Shown: positions 10,616 to 17,383 of the stretch, piece by piece
How positions within the stretch are numbered: position 1 is the first letter of the stretch
Layout of the letters: every line of letters starts with the position of its first letter
Origin: Deltaproteobacteria bacterium
GTDB taxonomy: Bacteria; Myxococcota; Myxococcia; Myxococcales; 40CM-4-68-19
Direction: 5' to 3'
Length of the DNA: 42,213 nucleotides
Assembly (NCBI GenBank): GCA_005879315.1
Contig: VBLC01000108.1
Span: 1 to 42,213 of the forward strand
Program-made: the position numbers and the translations under genes
Notes under the pieces: model-generated
Seen by the model: only the letters and a program-made list of their open reading frames with translations
Databases searched by the model: none
Told to the model about the DNA's origin: nothing

Positions 10616-10623
10616 GGAACTCG

Positions 10624-10794
10624 ATATTGGATCTCGCTGACGCCGCCGCTCACCGCGGGGGCCCCGGCTCGCCACGGCGTCGCCGCGGACTTGCCAGTTT
10701 TGGCACGCAACTGTTCCCTGAAGGCGGCTCCTAATGTGGCTCACCGAAACCCCCGCGGCTATCGCTGCGGCTGCCTGTGGATCGAGTTCCGCAC
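10624..10794 (+). repeat. Left inverted arm (~171 bp)
   Basis: Aligns as reverse complement to 11529-11697 with about six differences, including one 1-bp indel near CGCAACTG versus CGCAATG. It starts ATATTGGATCTCGCTGACG and ends GATCGAGTTCCGCAC. It contains one copy of the 36-bp motif that is tandemly repeated at the right end. It has short open frames but they are not conserved between arms because of the indel, so it is probably non-coding. Confidence 0.85.
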
Positions 10795-10983
10795 GATCGA
10801 GAACGTCACGGTTTCGTGCGGTACTCAAGCCGCATAGCCGATGGCCACGCGACGGGTCGTGCTCACATCCAAAGTGGGGCTGCAAGGGTCCCCGAAGGAG
10901 CAGCCGCAGGTCGTTGAGGAAAGTGCTCTCCTGGGCATGAACTCTACAAAGCTCTCGCAATGATCAACGGCGCGCGTCTACGC
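10795..10983. other. Non-coding stretch inside the island
   Basis: Together with the left arm this makes 368 bp without a gene (10616-10983). The 189 bp here, downstream of the minus-strand lipoprotein gene, show no convincing reading frame, no clear terminator hairpin with a T-run and no repeat to the rest of the window. Base composition is intermediate. I see nothing identifiable in it. Confidence 0.4.
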
Positions 10984-11460
10984 CTACGACCCACAAGTCG
11001 ACGTGCGTAGATAGGTTGTCCCCGGTCCTCTTGCCTTCACCGTGAGGCCGTTCCCGAACCAAGCGCCAGCTGCTGGAATCGGGATCGGGACATCGCCATC
11101 GTAGAACTGAACTTGCGGTGATGGACCGGCGTCCCCGTTGATGAGTTCGAGTTGGTAGACAAATCCCTGTCGGGCGGCAAGCGCGAACGCACCGCGCTTC
11201 TTCGAAAGCGGCCCCGCAGTGAAACTGCGATACGGAAATGCTCGCGTGCATCCAGGATCAATGCGGTGAGCATCGTCTACGGCCAACACAGACTTCGCGC
11301 CGACGAGCTGAATCGAGATCACTCCCCCATCGGGTGCGTCGTCCACCATTACGTGCAGAGGCTCCCTTGGCCAAACAAGTTGCTGCGTGCAACCAATGAC
11401 CGCGGGAATCAGGATTGCGGCGAAAACCATGCCCCGAACGTTGCGCATTTCTTCAGTCAA
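10984..11460 (-). CDS. Small lipoprotein carried in the inverted-arm island
   Basis: 158 residues from a TTG start at 11460, chosen because GGAGGT (11467-11472) is exactly 6 nt upstream; the ATG four codons later is the alternative. The N-terminus MRNVRGMVFAAILIPAVIGC is a lipoprotein signal with lipobox VIGC. The mature part is beta-rich and has no recognised domain: PLHVMVDDAPDGGVISIQLV, a Lys/Arg patch, then YQLELINGDAGPSPQVQFYD, and a Cys-containing end (LRTSTCGS). Lower G+C than its neighbours and position between inverted arms suggest it arrived with the element. Function unknown; an envelope-exposed passenger such as an immunity or surface protein is only a guess. Confidence 0.65.
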   Translation of the reverse strand: MTEEMRNVRGMVFAAILIPAVIGCTQQLVWPREPLHVMVDDAPDGGVISIQLVGAKSVLAVDDAHRIDPGCTRAFPYRSFTAGPLSKKRGAFALAARQGFVYQLELINGDAGPSPQVQFYDGDVPIPIPAAGAWFGNGLTVKARGPGTTYLRTSTCGS

Positions 11461-11466
11461 CGGGCG

Positions 11467-11472
11467 ACCTCC
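11467..11472 (-). promoter_or_regulatory. Shine-Dalgarno deciding the TTG start of the island lipoprotein
   Basis: Reads GGAGGT on the minus strand, 6 nt from the TTG at 11460. The ATG at 11448 would be 18 nt away, too far, so TTG is the better start. Confidence 0.6.
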
Positions 11473-11528
11473 TAAGTGGCACCATCGCAACTCTCTGATG
11501 GCAGGCTTTGCACTCCGGGACAGCATAG

Positions 11529-11697
11529 TGCGGGACTCGATCCACATGCAGCCGCAGCGATAGCCGCGGGGGTTTCGGTGAGCCACATTAGGAGCCGCCT
11601 TCGGGGAACATTGCGTGCCAAAACTGCCAAGTCCGCGGCGACGCCGTGGCGAGCCGGGGCCCCCGCGGTGAGCGGCGGCGTCAGGGAGATCCAATAT
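11529..11697 (-). repeat. Right inverted arm (~169 bp)
   Basis: Inverted partner of 10624-10794. It lies upstream of the lipoprotein gene and runs into the tandem 36-bp repeats. The 350-bp stretch 11461-11810 holds only the ribosome binding site, this arm, the repeats and the promoter of the next kinase. Confidence 0.85.
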
Positions 11698-11772
11698 CCC
11701 GCGGTAAGCGGCGGCGTCACTGAGCTCCAATATCCCGCGCTGAGCGGCGGCGTCACGGAGATCCAATATCAG
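11665..11772 (+). repeat. Three tandem 36-bp repeats at right end of island
   Basis: Units at 11665-11700, 11701-11736 and 11737-11772 share the core AGCGGCGGCGTCA followed by GGAGATCCAATATC or GAGCTCCAATATC; they differ at about three positions each. There are no spacers, so it is not a CRISPR array. Only one copy of the unit is present at the left end. This asymmetry and the terminal position suit binding sites for a transposase. Confidence 0.85.
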
Positions 11773-11810: not shown

Positions 11811-12872
11811 GTGGGCGGCGAGTTGCAGAAGACGGACCCGAGGCGGCAGCGCATCGTGGGCATCCTGGTGACGGCCGGCATCGCACTGCTCCAGCTGGCG
11901 AGCGAATTCCTCGGGGCGCACGATCTCGTCCGCCTGCTCTCCAAGAGCCTGGCTCTGCTCATCGGGTTGCCGCTGCTCATGTTCTGGGGAACCGCCGTCT
12001 TCCGCTGGGCGGCGCGACACCGCGTCGGCCTGGTCGGTCCGCTCTCGGTCGCCGCGATCGCGTCCGGGTTCTTCTTCTCCGGCCTGCTTCTGGCGACGCG
12101 GACGGTGACTGTGTCGATCGCGCCACTGCCGTTGGGTTACGAGCCTTACGGCCAAGGCGACGTCCTCCGTGTGGGGTTCGCCTTGGGGCTGAGCTATTTC
12201 GCCCTCTGGGCGTTGGCGTTTGTCTTCCCCCTCGTCGTTGAGGATGCGCGCGTTCGCGCGCTGGAGGCCGACAAGCTTCGTACCCAGGCGGAGCTCGCCC
12301 AGCTGCGCGCGCATCTCGAGCCGCATTTCCTCCTCAACACGCTCAACGCCATCGCTGGGCTGGTGACCGAGGATCCGCGACAGGCGCGCCAGCTGCTCGG
12401 CAACCTCGGCGACCTGTTGCGTGATTCGGTCGCGCCCGCCGGAGAGATGCAGACCCTCGACGAGCAGATCGAGTGGCTGCGTCGCTACGCGCAGATCCTG
12501 GAGACGCGCCACGCCGGCCATCTGGCCTTCCGCTGGGAGATCGGCGACGGCACGCCGCGCGCTCTCCTGCCGCGGCTCCTCTTGCAGCCGCTGATCGAAA
12601 ACGCGGTCAAGCACGGCGCGCTGATGCGTGCCGGCGGAGGCGAAATCACCGTGCGGACGGAGCTGGCCGGGCCGAAGCTGGTCTGCACCATCGAGGACAA
12701 CGGGCCCGGCGTCCCGAACAAAGCGACGCGGCCAGGAGCCTTCGGGCTCGTCTCCGTGCGCCGCAGGCTGGCGCTGCGCTACTCGGATGCGGCCGCGCTG
12801 CGCCTCGAGTCGTCTCCCAAGGGTACGCGATCGGTCGTCGAGCTGCCGCTCGAGCAAGGGGGCCCCTCGTGA
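11811..12872 (+). CDS. LytS-type sensor histidine kinase (copy 1)
   Basis: 353 residues from GTG. Four hydrophobic segments (about 15-33, 45-60, 73-95, 118-142) are followed by a short coiled linker and a His_kinase/HATPase module of the LytS/YehU class: phospho-acceptor His172 in LEPHFLLNTLNAIAGL, N-box LIENAVKHG with Asn264, EDNGPG and a compact C-terminal ATP lid. No separate sensory domain, so the signal is probably sensed in or near the membrane. The stop overlaps the start of the LytTR regulator (GTGA at 12869-12872), making a coupled pair. A close paralog lies at 15579-16634. Its promoter region abuts the inverted-arm island. Confidence 0.9.
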   Translation: MGGELQKTDPRRQRIVGILVTAGIALLQLASEFLGAHDLVRLLSKSLALLIGLPLLMFWGTAVFRWAARHRVGLVGPLSVAAIASGFFFSGLLLATRTVTVSIAPLPLGYEPYGQGDVLRVGFALGLSYFALWALAFVFPLVVEDARVRALEADKLRTQAELAQLRAHLEPHFLLNTLNAIAGLVTEDPRQARQLLGNLGDLLRDSVAPAGEMQTLDEQIEWLRRYAQILETRHAGHLAFRWEIGDGTPRALLPRLLLQPLIENAVKHGALMRAGGGEITVRTELAGPKLVCTIEDNGPGVPNKATRPGAFGLVSVRRRLALRYSDAAALRLESSPKGTRSVVELPLEQGGPS

Positions 12873-13639
12873 GCGAAGCGAAACTCCTCAAGGCGCTTGT
12901 GCTCGAGGACGAGTGGCCGACCCGGAACTATCTGGTCAAGCTGATCGAGGGCACGCAGCGCGCGGAAGTGATCGGCGCGGTGGCGAGCCTGGAGCAGGCG
13001 CGCGAGGCGATGGCGGGGTCGCCGGTGGACGTGGTGTTCGTCGACGTCCAGCTGGCCGCCACCGGCGATTCGCGCACCGGCCTCGATCTGATCCGCTCGA
13101 TGGCCGGCGAGCCCTCCGCGCCGATGTTCGTGCTCGCGACGGCTTCCTCGCAGCACAGCCTGGAAGCGTTCGACCTCGGCGTCGTCGACTACATCCTCAA
13201 GCCCTTCACCGAGGAGCGTGTCGAGCAGTGCCTCAAGCGTCTCCTCGAGCGCCGTCTCCCGCGAGCGCAGGGACCGCGCCGTGTGGTGGCGCGGCGGAAG
13301 AAGAGCCTCGTCTTCCTCGACCCCGCGAACATCTGGGCGTTCGAGGCGGCGGACCGCCTCACCTTCGTGCACGCGCCCGAGGGCCGCTTCGACATCGATC
13401 TCTCGTTGGCCGCGATCGAGGCCTCGTTCGGCCGCACGCTGTTTCGCGTGCACCGCAACTGGCTGGTCAACCTGGCCTACGTCAAGGAGCTGGAGCGCGA
13501 CATCGGAGGGGCGACGGTGACGGTCGGCCGCGACATCGGTCCTGAGGGGCGGAGCATCCATGTACCCGTCTCGCAGGACCGTTCCAAGGCGCTGCGAGAC
13601 GCGCTGCTGGAGAACGCGACCGGTCTGCGGCGGCCCTGA
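12869..13639 (+). CDS. LytTR-type response regulator (copy 1)
   Basis: 256 residues from a GTG that overlaps the kinase stop. Receiver domain 1-~122: acidic pair Glu13-Asp14, phospho-acceptor Asp59 in VVFVDVQL, and Lys111 in YILKPF. Residues ~140-250 form a LytTR DNA-binding domain (IWAFEAADRLTFVHAPEGRF, FGRTLFRVHRNWLVNLAYVKEL). It should bind DNA direct repeats in target promoters on phosphorylation by the coupled kinase. The receiver has an insertion after the Asp (AATGDSRTG) relative to copy 2. Convergent with the dead-protease gene with a 4-bp gap. Confidence 0.9.
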   Translation: MSEAKLLKALVLEDEWPTRNYLVKLIEGTQRAEVIGAVASLEQAREAMAGSPVDVVFVDVQLAATGDSRTGLDLIRSMAGEPSAPMFVLATASSQHSLEAFDLGVVDYILKPFTEERVEQCLKRLLERRLPRAQGPRRVVARRKKSLVFLDPANIWAFEAADRLTFVHAPEGRFDIDLSLAAIEASFGRTLFRVHRNWLVNLAYVKELERDIGGATVTVGRDIGPEGRSIHVPVSQDRSKALRDALLENATGLRRP

Positions 13640-13643
13640 GCGG

Positions 13644-14393
13644 TCAGATGTGGTCGCCGACCTGCGGCGCCGGCGAGTGAACGCTCGCTAGAATCTGCAC
13701 CAGACGCGCGGAGGGAACGAGAACGATGTCGTGCTCGCTCGGGCTGACCAGAAGGCCCGCCAGCGCTCCGCCCGCGTCGAACACCGGAGCGCCGGCGAAG
13801 CTGAGGGGCAGCCCGCGAGCAGAGCTCAGACCGAGCGGGTCCTCGGGCCGCCGGATGGAAAAGCCGATCACCTCGAGCAGGAGCGCCGGACCCTGCTTCG
13901 ACGCACGGAGGGCGAGAAGCTGATCGCCCGAAGTTCCTTCGCCAAGCGGCGGCCCTTCGAGCGAGCGGGCACCTTCGGGAAGCTCGAGCACTGCCACATC
14001 TGCATCGAGCGCGGCGTCGACGACGCGCGCCGGGAAAATGCCCTGTGTGGTCAGCACGGCAATCTCCGCGGCGGGCTGCAGGTCGCCACCGGGACCCGCG
14101 ACTTGTAGACCGCGCAGATCGGTGAGCACGAGGCCGTCTCCGACCAACACGCCGGGGAAGGCGTTGATCTTCTCTGTGCTCGTCGCTGCAAAGACCTGGA
14201 CCGCCATTCCGTGCACGCGATCGATGACGGCTACGGCGGGCGCATCGGCAGCGACCGGATCGGCGACAGGCCCAGGCCAGGGCGAAATGGCGGGGCTGGT
14301 GTTCTTCAGCGCGCCGGCCTCGCCGCGGTCGAACGCACGGTCATGGGCACAGGCGGCAAGGCCCAGGGAGAGGATGGCTGCGACGCGGCTCAT
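13644..14393 (-). CDS. Lipoprotein with degenerate trypsin-like (HtrA-like) protease fold
   Basis: 249 residues; start ATG overlaps the upstream kinase stop (ATGA at 14390-14393). Lipobox LAAC with Cys15. From ~55 the order of strands follows the chymotrypsin fold of HtrA-type proteases: FPGVLVGDGLVLTDLRGL (normally ...LTNAHVV), ALDADVAVLEL with Asp132 kept, and SFAGAPVFDAGGALAGLL (normally GNSGGPL). The catalytic His is replaced (Arg94) and the nucleophile Ser is replaced by Ala or Gly around 200-201. So it is probably a non-proteolytic binding protein. Co-transcribed with a PAS histidine kinase, it may act as its periplasmic signal module; this is inference. No PDZ domain follows. Confidence 0.7.
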   Translation of the reverse strand: MSRVAAILSLGLAACAHDRAFDRGEAGALKNTSPAISPWPGPVADPVAADAPAVAVIDRVHGMAVQVFAATSTEKINAFPGVLVGDGLVLTDLRGLQVAGPGGDLQPAAEIAVLTTQGIFPARVVDAALDADVAVLELPEGARSLEGPPLGEGTSGDQLLALRASKQGPALLLEVIGFSIRRPEDPLGLSSARGLPLSFAGAPVFDAGGALAGLLVSPSEHDIVLVPSARLVQILASVHSPAPQVGDHI

Positions 14394-15451
14394 GATTGTC
14401 CGCCCTTCTTCGGCAGCCAGACATGAAACACCGTGGCACTCTCGTCGCTGGTCAGCTCGATGCGCCCGCCGTGCGCGCGGACGATCTCCCTCACGATGTA
14501 CAGGCCGAGGTGATCGCTTGGCCACGTCCCTCGGCGCGTCGGATCGAAGAGGTGGTCGCGAAACGGATCGGGAATCGGCTGCCCGGTGTTGGCGACGGTG
14601 AGCAGCACTTCCTCGTTGCAGTCGATGACGGAGACCATGACCGGCGTGCCGGGATCGCCGTGCTCCATCGCGTTGGAGAGCAGGTTCCGCATGACCTGGA
14701 GCAGACGGTCCCGGTCCCACTCGCCGGACACTTCGTCCCAGCAGTCGAGCTGGACGGGGTGGCCGGGATACGCGAGGGATATTTCGGCGACGGCCTGCCG
14801 GCAGACATCGGCGAGCGGACCGCGTTCGCGCCTCAGCTGCACCTCACCCTCGCCCGCGCGGGCGGAGCGCAAGAGCCGCTCGATCAGGCGATCCATCGTC
14901 TTCGCCGTGCGCTGCATCGTCGAAAGGATCTCCGCCTTCGCCGGCGAATCCCGCTGCACCAGCTCGATGCCCATCGAGAGGGCGTTGAGCGGCACGCGCA
15001 GATCGTGACCCAGCTCGCCGAGATGGAAGTCGCGCTCCTCCTCCATCCGCTTCCGCTCGGTGATGTCCTCGAGCGTGCCGGCGATGCGCACGGCGCACAC
15101 GCCTTGGAAAAACGCGCGGCCCGAGGCGAACAGCCATCGCCGGGCCGGACCGACCGTGCGGAATTCGATTGAGCAGTCGCCGTCGCTCTCCGGGTCCAGG
15201 ACCTGGGCGACCGCATCCTTCCAGCGCTCGCCGTCGACGGGCTGCAGGGCAGCGAGGATGCGCTGGATGGAGATCGGCTCGTCGTCGCCGATCTCGAGCA
15301 GCCGCCTGCTCCGCAGCGAGAGGACGTGCTCGCCGGTTCGCGGACGGATCTCCCAGGTTCCCAGGCCGGCGGCTTCGAGGGCGAGCCGCGCGCCGCTGAG
15401 TTCGCGCGGTTTGCCAGCCAGCAGCAGCCTCATCTCCAGGTTTGAGCTCAT
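14390..15451 (-). CDS. PAS-domain histidine kinase
   Basis: 353 residues from the ATG at 15451, chosen because GGAGG lies 5 nt before it; an ATG 15 bp upstream overlaps that Shine-Dalgarno. PAS-like domain at ~25-132 (GLGTWEIRPRTGEHVLSL ... GTLEDITERKRM), then HisKA with His149 in ELGHDLRVPLNALSM, and HATPase_c (NLLSNAMEHGDPG, VANTGQPIPDPF, DHLGLYIVREIVRAHGG). No membrane segment, so soluble. There is no receiver gene beside it; the 4-bp overlap links it to the dead-protease lipoprotein. It lies divergently from the second LytS-type kinase with 127 bp between starts, and between the two LytS/LytT pairs; phosphotransfer to one of those regulators is possible. Confidence 0.88.
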   Translation of the reverse strand: MSSNLEMRLLLAGKPRELSGARLALEAAGLGTWEIRPRTGEHVLSLRSRRLLEIGDDEPISIQRILAALQPVDGERWKDAVAQVLDPESDGDCSIEFRTVGPARRWLFASGRAFFQGVCAVRIAGTLEDITERKRMEEERDFHLGELGHDLRVPLNALSMGIELVQRDSPAKAEILSTMQRTAKTMDRLIERLLRSARAGEGEVQLRRERGPLADVCRQAVAEISLAYPGHPVQLDCWDEVSGEWDRDRLLQVMRNLLSNAMEHGDPGTPVMVSVIDCNEEVLLTVANTGQPIPDPFRDHLFDPTRRGTWPSDHLGLYIVREIVRAHGGRIELTSDESATVFHVWLPKKGGQS

Positions 15452-15566
15452 GACGTCCTCCTTCATGCCGGGCAGGTTAGGAGGCCCGCGGCACCCGGGC
15501 CGCGAAATGACGACGAGAGGCCGATTGCTGCCGACGGGCGCCGCAGCTTCGCAGCGCCGCCGCCGC

Positions 15567-15572
15567 TACAGT
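15567..15572 (+). promoter_or_regulatory. -10-like TACAGT, leaderless start of kinase copy 2
   Basis: TACAGT ends 6 nt before the ATG at 15579, the same spacing as in front of kinase copy 1. No Shine-Dalgarno is present. The 127-bp divergent region 15452-15578 must also contain the promoter of the PAS kinase. Confidence 0.35.
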
Positions 15573-15578
15573 CGATGC

Positions 15579-16634
15579 ATGAAAATCGTTCCCGAGATCA
15601 CCGGCCGGCGCGGAGCCTTGGGAATCTCCGTGATGACCGTCGTGCCCCTGCTGCAGCTCGCCACCGAGTACCTGGGAACCGGCGACCGCGGCCGCATGCT
15701 CTCCAAGCTCGCCGTCACCCTCATCGGGCTGCCCATTCTCCTCTGGGGATCGTCGCGCGGCCTTCGCTGGGCTGAACGCCGCCGGTCGGGAACGCTGGTT
15801 GTGCTCCTGGTCGGGATGCTTTCGGCCGGAGCGCTCTACGCCGTGCTCGTCGAGGTGATGCACCTCGCGAGCTTCCCCATCGCGATGCTGCGGCCAGCGA
15901 CCGGGCAGTGGGCAACCTCCCCTGCGTTGCGCATCGGGTTCGCGATGGGCCTGACCAACTTCGGGCTCTGGGCGCTCGCTTTCGTCTTCCCCTTTGCGCT
16001 GGAAGACGCGCGCTTCCGCTCGCTCGAGGCGCAACAGCTTCGCACGGCGGCGGAGCTGGCGCGGCTGCGCTCGCATCTCGAGCCGCACTTCCTGCTCAAC
16101 ACGCTCAACGCCATCGCCGGGCTCACCACCGAGGACCCTCGCGCGGCGCGTCGTCTGTTGGCCTCGCTCGGCGACCTCCTCCGCGATTCGCTTCGCGACC
16201 AGGGTGAGATGCAGACGCTGGGCGAGCAGATCGACTGGCTCCGCCATTACGCGCAGATCCTCGAGGAGCGGCACGCCGGGCGGCTCGCCTTCCACTGGGA
16301 GGTGGGGGCCGGGACCCGCGCCGCGCTCCTGCCGCGCCTCTTGCTCCAACCGCTGGTCGAGAACGCCGTCAAGCACGGCGCCCTGGCGCGCAAGGATGGC
16401 GGCGAGATCAAAGTGCAGGCGGCCGTCGTGGACGCGAACAAGCTCGTTTGCACCGTCGAGGACAACGGTCTAGGACTTCCGGACGGGGAGACGCGCCCGG
16501 GAGCGTTCGGCCTCCACTCCGTGCAGCGACGGCTCGCGTTGCAGTACGCGGAGCGAGCGAGCTTCCGTCTCGAGTCGTCGACATCGGGGACGCGATCGAT
16601 CGTCGAGATCCCGCTCGAGGAGGCCCGCTCATGA
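15579..16634 (+). CDS. LytS-type sensor histidine kinase (copy 2)
   Basis: 351 residues; same architecture as the kinase at 11811: four membrane segments (about 12-30, 43-58, 72-95, 117-140), then His170 in LEPHFLLNTLNAIAGL and Asn262 in LVENAVKHG, with EDNGLGLPDGETRPGAFGL. The catalytic halves of the two copies are nearly alike residue for residue, whereas the loops between membrane segments 3 and 4 differ (VMHLASFPIAMLRPATGQ here), suggesting duplication followed by change in what is sensed. Stop overlaps the regulator start (ATGA at 16631-16634). Confidence 0.9.
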   Translation: MKIVPEITGRRGALGISVMTVVPLLQLATEYLGTGDRGRMLSKLAVTLIGLPILLWGSSRGLRWAERRRSGTLVVLLVGMLSAGALYAVLVEVMHLASFPIAMLRPATGQWATSPALRIGFAMGLTNFGLWALAFVFPFALEDARFRSLEAQQLRTAAELARLRSHLEPHFLLNTLNAIAGLTTEDPRAARRLLASLGDLLRDSLRDQGEMQTLGEQIDWLRHYAQILEERHAGRLAFHWEVGAGTRAALLPRLLLQPLVENAVKHGALARKDGGEIKVQAAVVDANKLVCTVEDNGLGLPDGETRPGAFGLHSVQRRLALQYAERASFRLESSTSGTRSIVEIPLEEARS

Positions 16635-17383
16635 CCCGCCTGCGCGCGCTCGTGCTCGAGGACGAATGGCCGGCGCGCAACTACCTGGTGCAGCTCATCG
16701 AGGCGACCCAGCTCGCCGAGGTGGTCGGCGCGGTCGCCACCATCGGCGAGGCGCGCGAAGTTCTGGCGGGCCTTCCGGTCGACGTCGTCTTCGTCGACGT
16801 CCAGCTTTCCGGCGGCGATAGTGGCCTGGAGCTCGTCCAGTCGATGGCTGCCTCGGGAGTCGCGCGGCCGGCGTTCGTGCTGGCGACCGCCTTCAGCCAG
16901 CATGCGCTGGAGGCGTGGGATCTCGGCGTCGTCGATTATCTGCTCAAGCCGTTCAACGAGGAGCGCGTCGAGCAGTGTCTTCGCCGCCTGCTCATCCAGA
17001 GGCCGCCGCGCCCAGGCGCGCTCCGCGTGGTGGCGAGGCGCAAGCGCAGCCTCGTCTTCCTCGATCCCGCCGACATCTGGGCCTTCGAAGCGTCCGATCG
17101 TTTGAGCTTCGTCCACTCGCGGCTGGGCAAGTTCGACATCGATCTGTCGCTCGCCGCCATCGAGACTTCCTTCGGCCGCTCCCTCATCCGCGTGCATCGC
17201 AACTGGCTGGTCAACCTCGACTTCGCCAGGGAGCTGGAACGCGAAGAAGGCGAGACCACGCTGTTCGTCGGGGCGTCGCTGGGCGACGAGAGCCACGGCG
17301 TGCGCGTCCCCGTCTCCCGCGACCGCGCCCAGCCATTGCGGAACGCGCTGCTCGCAAACGCAACCGGCCTGCGACACACTTGA
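16631..17383 (+). CDS. LytTR-type response regulator (copy 2)
   Basis: 250 residues. Receiver: Glu10-Asp11, Asp56 in VVFVDVQL, Lys106 in YLLKPF. LytTR domain ~135-245 (DIWAFEASDRLSFVHSRLGKF, FGRSLIRVHRNWLVNLDF). Strongly similar to the copy at 12869 over the whole length; the DNA-contacting region of LytTR (around LVNL and the last strands) differs more, e.g. EEGETTLFVGASLGDES against DIGGATVTVGRDIGPEG, so target sites may differ. Coupled to kinase copy 2 by a 4-bp overlap. Followed by a methyltransferase after 13 bp. Confidence 0.9.
   Translation: MTRLRALVLEDEWPARNYLVQLIEATQLAEVVGAVATIGEAREVLAGLPVDVVFVDVQLSGGDSGLELVQSMAASGVARPAFVLATAFSQHALEAWDLGVVDYLLKPFNEERVEQCLRRLLIQRPPRPGALRVVARRKRSLVFLDPADIWAFEASDRLSFVHSRLGKFDIDLSLAAIETSFGRSLIRVHRNWLVNLDFARELEREEGETTLFVGASLGDESHGVRVPVSRDRAQPLRNALLANATGLRHT

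Follow-up and report, generated by a model that had tools for sequence, protein, structure and literature searches.

Paired hairpin arms without a transposase: a dispersed element family, with passenger genes in some copies, in a myxococcal draft genome

Introduction

REPINs are inverted doublets of hairpins whose movement is attributed to RAYTs (PMC3116915), and TIMEs are Tn3-derived, transposase-less repeats able to mobilize the DNA between them in a composite-like manner, with 38-bp Tn3-type inverted repeats and target duplications of 5–6 bp (PMC4133298). Mobile insertion cassettes (MICs) hold a passenger gene between inverted repeats without a transposase, and both they and transporter insertion sequences (ISs) are recognizable derivatives of a known IS. 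The ERIC/RU and YPAL elements are structured palindromes of about 100–170 bp that are intergenic, transcribed, and often located near stop codons.

Here, we describe an element in a Deltaproteobacteria bacterium of the Myxococcales that resembles an oversized relative of these hitch-hiking repeats. The window, by which we mean the whole 42,213-nucleotide stretch that was analyzed, is contig C14 (VBLC01000108.1) of a draft assembly (GCA_005879315.1) of 4.43 Mb in 125 contigs that is 97.6% complete. Similar to REPINs, the element is an intergenic inverted doublet of hairpin arms that lacks an enzyme of its own and resides in a host that encodes RAYT-like proteins; unlike REPINs, its arms are about 175 nt rather than about 20–40 nt long, its copies are few (13 arms), some copies contain passenger genes, and no RAYT adjoins the family. 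It shares with TIMEs and mosaic transposons the short transposase-less inverted repeats that flank DNA, but the arms are not 38-bp repeats and no duplication of 5–6 bp was seen. The passenger between inverted repeats is reminiscent of MICs, although no parent IS of this family was found in the assembly. Finally, it is a structured intergenic palindrome often near stop codons, as are ERIC/RU and YPAL, but one of 370–490 bp, with two self-folding halves and with genes in some copies.

Results

The sequence-only reading had placed at 10624–11772 an island with inverted arms of ~170 bp at about 96% identity, three 36-bp tandem repeats at one end and one at the other, a single lipoprotein gene of low G+C, and no transposase. 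These features were borne out with minor adjustment of the boundaries, as the true extent is 10623–11770. The left arm (type A, forward strand, 10623–10797) has the terminus GATATTGGATCTC, can be folded into a hairpin, and matches the covariance model with 183 bits; the right arm (type A, reverse strand, 11525–11698) is its inverted copy and matches with 188 bits (96% identity). The arms, 95–96% identical overall, pair in two segments, 10623–10710 with 11611–11698 (88 nt, 98% identity) and 10712–10797 with 11525–11610 (86 nt, 95% identity). The core of the left-arm hairpin (10656–10765, forward strand), delineated by covariation and folding, has a CGGGGG...CCCCCG stem and conserved internal loops. 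Tandem Repeats Finder (TRF) revealed a single tandem repeat in the window, the array of three 36-bp terminal units at 11662–11770 on the reverse strand (D1 repeat family; 3.0 copies, 89% matches). The first of these units is part of the right arm and the outer two are extra, while the left end has one unit; such extra units were found in the window copy only, with one unit in the other family copies. The chance expectation of even a 20-bp piece of the unit in the window is 0. Just inside the left arm (10816–10840, forward strand), local alignment identified a segment that partly repeats the right arm's inner end, GTGCGGTACTC..AGCCG (permutation p about 0.006), and a similar scrap is present at the same place in another copy, on contig C50 (permutation p below 0.0005). 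No transposase was found between the window arms.

The only clear gene between the arms (10984–11448, reverse strand) codes for a putative lipoprotein of 154 amino acids with a lipobox-like N-terminus, MRNVRGMVFAAILIPAVIGC. Its G+C content is 59.6% (56.7% in 11221–11460) compared to 68% for the window, and its GC3 is 62% in comparison to 86% and 88% for the neighboring YceI and histidine kinase genes, respectively. Searches of Pfam, NCBIfam, and PADLOC gave no match to this protein, searches of 60 related genomes gave one marginal match (E 0.009) and no convincing relative, and none was found in viral contigs. We also observed that positions 11811–17244 contain, at a short distance from each other, two related pairs of LytS-like histidine kinase and LytTR-type regulator genes (74% identical DNA), the first of which directly adjoins the element.

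The sequence-only reading had proposed that the rest of the genome be searched with the arm and the 36-bp unit. Searching with the left arm returned 13 further places, namely the partner arm, both arms of elements on contigs C88, C50, C48, C62, and C39, a solo arm on C21, and the extra terminal unit; thus the arms are not unique to the window. The family in this genome comprises six two-arm elements, one solo arm, and one decayed remnant, counting those copies that exceed the search thresholds, with a sensitivity limited by the first step of the search such that remnants may be missed. A 31-bp end pattern, allowing up to 3 mismatches, occurs at 14 places in the genome, and 146 other genomes of the class lack it. 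The genome_contigs and viral_contigs collections contained no exact match to the end or core patterns, searches of plasmids and phages for the element returned none, and Rfam holds no matching family. Weak matches to arm DNA in relatives (L027–L033) and at L118 were set aside as apparent chance matches, mostly in coding DNA.

The two-arm elements span about 370–1076 bp between their outer arm ends. The arms can be aligned over their full length, while the cores vary in length and content: the lipoprotein gene in the window; a P-loop kinase-like gene in C50 (205 aa, measured from the preceding stop), whose homologue in G005 is 54% identical and has no arms around it; small ORFs in C48; and almost nothing in C39, which is almost a pure palindrome. 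The remnant, on C45, is a decayed piece directly past a stop codon. The solo arm (type B; L026:2049–2228) lies after an ABC transporter ATPase gene, and no partner was found within about 2.3 kb. When aligned, the 13 arms fell into type A (both arms of C14 and C50, the right arms of C88 and C39, and the left arm of C48) and type B (both arms of C62, the left arms of C88 and C39, the right arm of C48, and the C21 arm). Three of the six two-arm elements, C88, C48, and C39, combine an arm of each type, as expected for left and right ends. Copies are mutually 68–92% identical, whereas the two window arms are 95% identical and are sisters in the arm tree (support 0.999).

RNAalifold predicted one long imperfect hairpin per arm. 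In the MAFFT alignment 93.5% of the cells were paired, compared to 31.7–47.2% when the partners were slid. Double-sided compensatory changes were seen at 7 pairs, a number reached in 31 of 500 shuffles, and double-changed cells numbered 26, which none of 500 shuffles reached. The clearest covariation lies in one helix with GCCAC/GTGGC, GCCGC/GCGGC, and GCCAG/CTGGC, and in another with CCGCGG/CCGCGG, CCGTGG/CCACGG, and CCGGCG/CGCCGG. Upon addition of two arms from the congener G003 (see below), 94.6% of the cells paired and 53 were double-changed (0 of 500 shuffles), in an alignment that is model-fitted and has an opposite-strand arm among its 16 rows, and so leans towards structure. In single-sequence folding, the left arm of C62 was more stable than shuffled sequences (z −4.2), and the window arm was no better than shuffles (z −0.4). 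Template-switch correction of quasi-palindromes could account for part of the covariation instead of selection; the preservation of the internal loops speaks against this process as the full explanation.

A stop codon is located no more than about 15 bp from one end in C14, C88, C50, C48, C39, C21, the C45 remnant, and the palindromes of G003 and G002 described below. In C50, C48, and G003, this codon is a TGA that overlaps the first bases of the element or immediately adjoins them. No clear target-site duplication was apparent; only TA/ATAT is shared, and it lies inside the conserved ends GATATT/AATATC. Empty sites in relatives had been suggested as a check. At the C88 position, the same pair of convergent genes occurs without an element in the congeners G001 and G002 in this between-species comparison, and G002 is shorter there by about the length of the element. 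No such site could be demonstrated for the window copy, since its flanking genes lie apart in those relatives in which they were found. G003 was uninformative as an empty site for a C50-like position, with a peptidase-like gene there instead. In the congener G005, a different palindrome (TAGAGCGCATCTCATAACCCC and its complement; L093:532–639) occupies the position equivalent to the C88 insertion, which suggests a hot spot.

The family is old and genome-specific, with a relative in the genus. In G003, the stop codon of a gene resembling that for ribose-phosphate pyrophosphokinase is followed by a single-copy palindrome of 484 bp that is 81% identical to its own reverse complement and displays the same anatomy in diverged form. 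Its arms scored 46 and 38 bits under the 13-arm model built without them, and 99–105 bits under a model that includes them. A third, weaker case by model match is in G002, where a palindrome of about 291 bp (L123:1386–1676) with GTGACGCCGG near its ends directly follows a stop codon. A hairpin in G009 (L122) was rejected as a relative, having only a terminator-like fold in common.

This genome has 13 Y1_Tnp loci, and several congeners have 13–21. RAYTs are normally single-copy, and eight close relatives in one genome are unusual; here, eight of the 13 loci form a close group of intact RAYT-like genes (L166–L168, L170–L172, L174, and L175), each with about 60 conserved bases upstream that end in ATATATCCCCAATC, and no shared sequence was seen downstream. 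One tested Y1 copy scored 25 bits, below the cut-off, against the NCBI model for REP-associated tyrosine transposases (NF047646). Two further loci, on C5 (L169:1650–2207) and C123 (L173:117–712), are decayed Y1 elements, about 80% identical, that lie inside inverted hairpin arms (CCCCAGGCTGAAGCCTGGGG), and the one on C123 has a tandem 28-bp terminal unit that parallels the window element. They show the same architecture in the same genome. There was no clear match to the arm family near the 13 Y1 loci.

Discussion

We consider it likely that the island belongs, as one copy among several, to a non-autonomous, transposase-less family of mobile elements that is mobilized in trans. Counting for this reading are the unrelated sites of the six two-arm copies, the solo arm, and the remnant, the differing cores between arms that can be aligned end to end, the element-free C88 site in G001 and G002, the covariation within the arms, the palindromes of G003 and G002, the ends at stop codons, and the cargo of foreign composition, together with the kinase homologue that lacks arms in G005. 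Counting against it are the TA/ATAT duplication, which is the only one and is ambiguous, the lack of an enzyme with matching ends, the possible contribution of template switching to the covariation, the z of the window arm, and the missing empty site for the window copy. The proposal of a MITE-like or transporter-type element that moves a passenger with help in trans thus holds in part: it is transposase-less, carries a passenger, and has related copies and an empty site at C88, but no full-length IS with the same ends was found in the assembly.

The basic unit would be a palindrome of about 370–490 bp made of two inverted arms of about 175 nt, each of which, judging from sequence and covariation, appears able to fold on itself as an imperfect hairpin whose internal loops are conserved. 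A transposase acting in trans would have recognized the ends or the hairpins and inserted copies just downstream of stop codons. In some copies, a short foreign gene of low G+C may have been captured in the loop or between two half-elements, which is what the right-arm scraps just inside the left arms of C14 and C50 fit. In the window copy, the two arms would later have been homogenized with each other and one terminal unit amplified to three.

High arm identity had been taken to suggest recent activity or ongoing gene conversion. Given that the copies are 68–92% identical to one another while only the C14 arms are 95% identical and sisters, the first of these lacks support and the data point to the second: the identity of the window arms is best read as local homogenization and not as a fresh jump, and the family is old and now probably immobile in this genome.

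Two versions of mobilization in trans differ in the enzyme. In the first, a DDE transposase would mobilize the family as a classical MITE or mobile insertion cassette, with the complete DDE element being absent from the draft. The terminal inverted repeat GATATTGGATCTC would suit it, as would the possible TA duplication, and low-copy derivatives with cargo have precedents in MICs, transporter ISs, and TIMEs. TA duplication is typical of IS630-type elements. Yet a full-length IS with the same ends, which the sequence-only reading had suggested looking for, was not found: the 31-bp end, allowing for 3 mismatches at most, belongs to no IS in this assembly or in the 146 other genomes of the class, and the structured A and B arms far exceed the length that DDE inverted repeats need. 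We view this version as possible, with somewhat less than an even chance of being right.

In the other version, the family is a giant REPIN, in which a Y1 (RAYT/IS200-like) transposase moves the doublet, with or without cargo, as folded single-stranded DNA. Because of the 13 Y1 (RAYT-like) transposases, two of whose loci lie in hairpin arms, such a REPIN-like mechanism deserves serious consideration; a DDE insertion sequence that did not assemble is no less possible. The tested Y1 copy is RAYT-like at a sub-threshold score, the Y1 remnant on C123 even has a tandem terminal unit, arm pairing is conserved, and described REPINs are likewise inverted hairpin doublets thought to be RAYT-moved (PMC3116915). 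On the other hand, no Y1 gene of the genome sits beside the arm family, the arms are several times longer than REPs, the copy number is low, and we found no published description of REPINs with passenger genes. Taken together, we hold this version only tentatively. Its fullest form, a gene-carrying REPIN built as a long covarying single-strand hairpin doublet and moved in trans by the Y1 RAYT family, capturing single foreign genes and spreading them behind stop codons, strikes us as rather improbable.

Alternatively, the elements would be immobile bidirectional terminators or structured RNAs at gene 3' ends that recombination duplicated, trapping genes in between. Their location by stop codons, often between convergent genes, would agree with this reading, as would further long palindromes in similar locations in congeners and the fact that the G003 palindrome is single-copy, but it is unlikely given that the ends of the six copies coincide although their sites are unrelated, and that one orthologous junction lacks the element.

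In its apparent mode of action the family thus resembles a MITE or mobile insertion cassette, or else a REPIN with large arms, and we claim membership in neither. It has the terminal inverted repeats, multiple dispersed copies, and lack of an internal transposase of the former, and we do not place it there since no autonomous IS sharing its ends was found in the draft assembly or the 146 other genomes. With REPINs it shares two inverted hairpin arms, indicated by covariation and in part by single-sequence folding, and a RAYT-like gene in the genome (at a sub-threshold score), and we do not place it there since its arms do not lie beside a cognate RAYT and are not REPs of about 20–40 nt in high copy number.

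If a RAYT does move this family, it would extend the role of RAYT-type Y1 transposases to the spread of passenger genes, for which we found no published description. The family shows small transposase-less repeats that carry genes, and it adds a case in which whole arms, and not the ends alone, appear to be structurally constrained.
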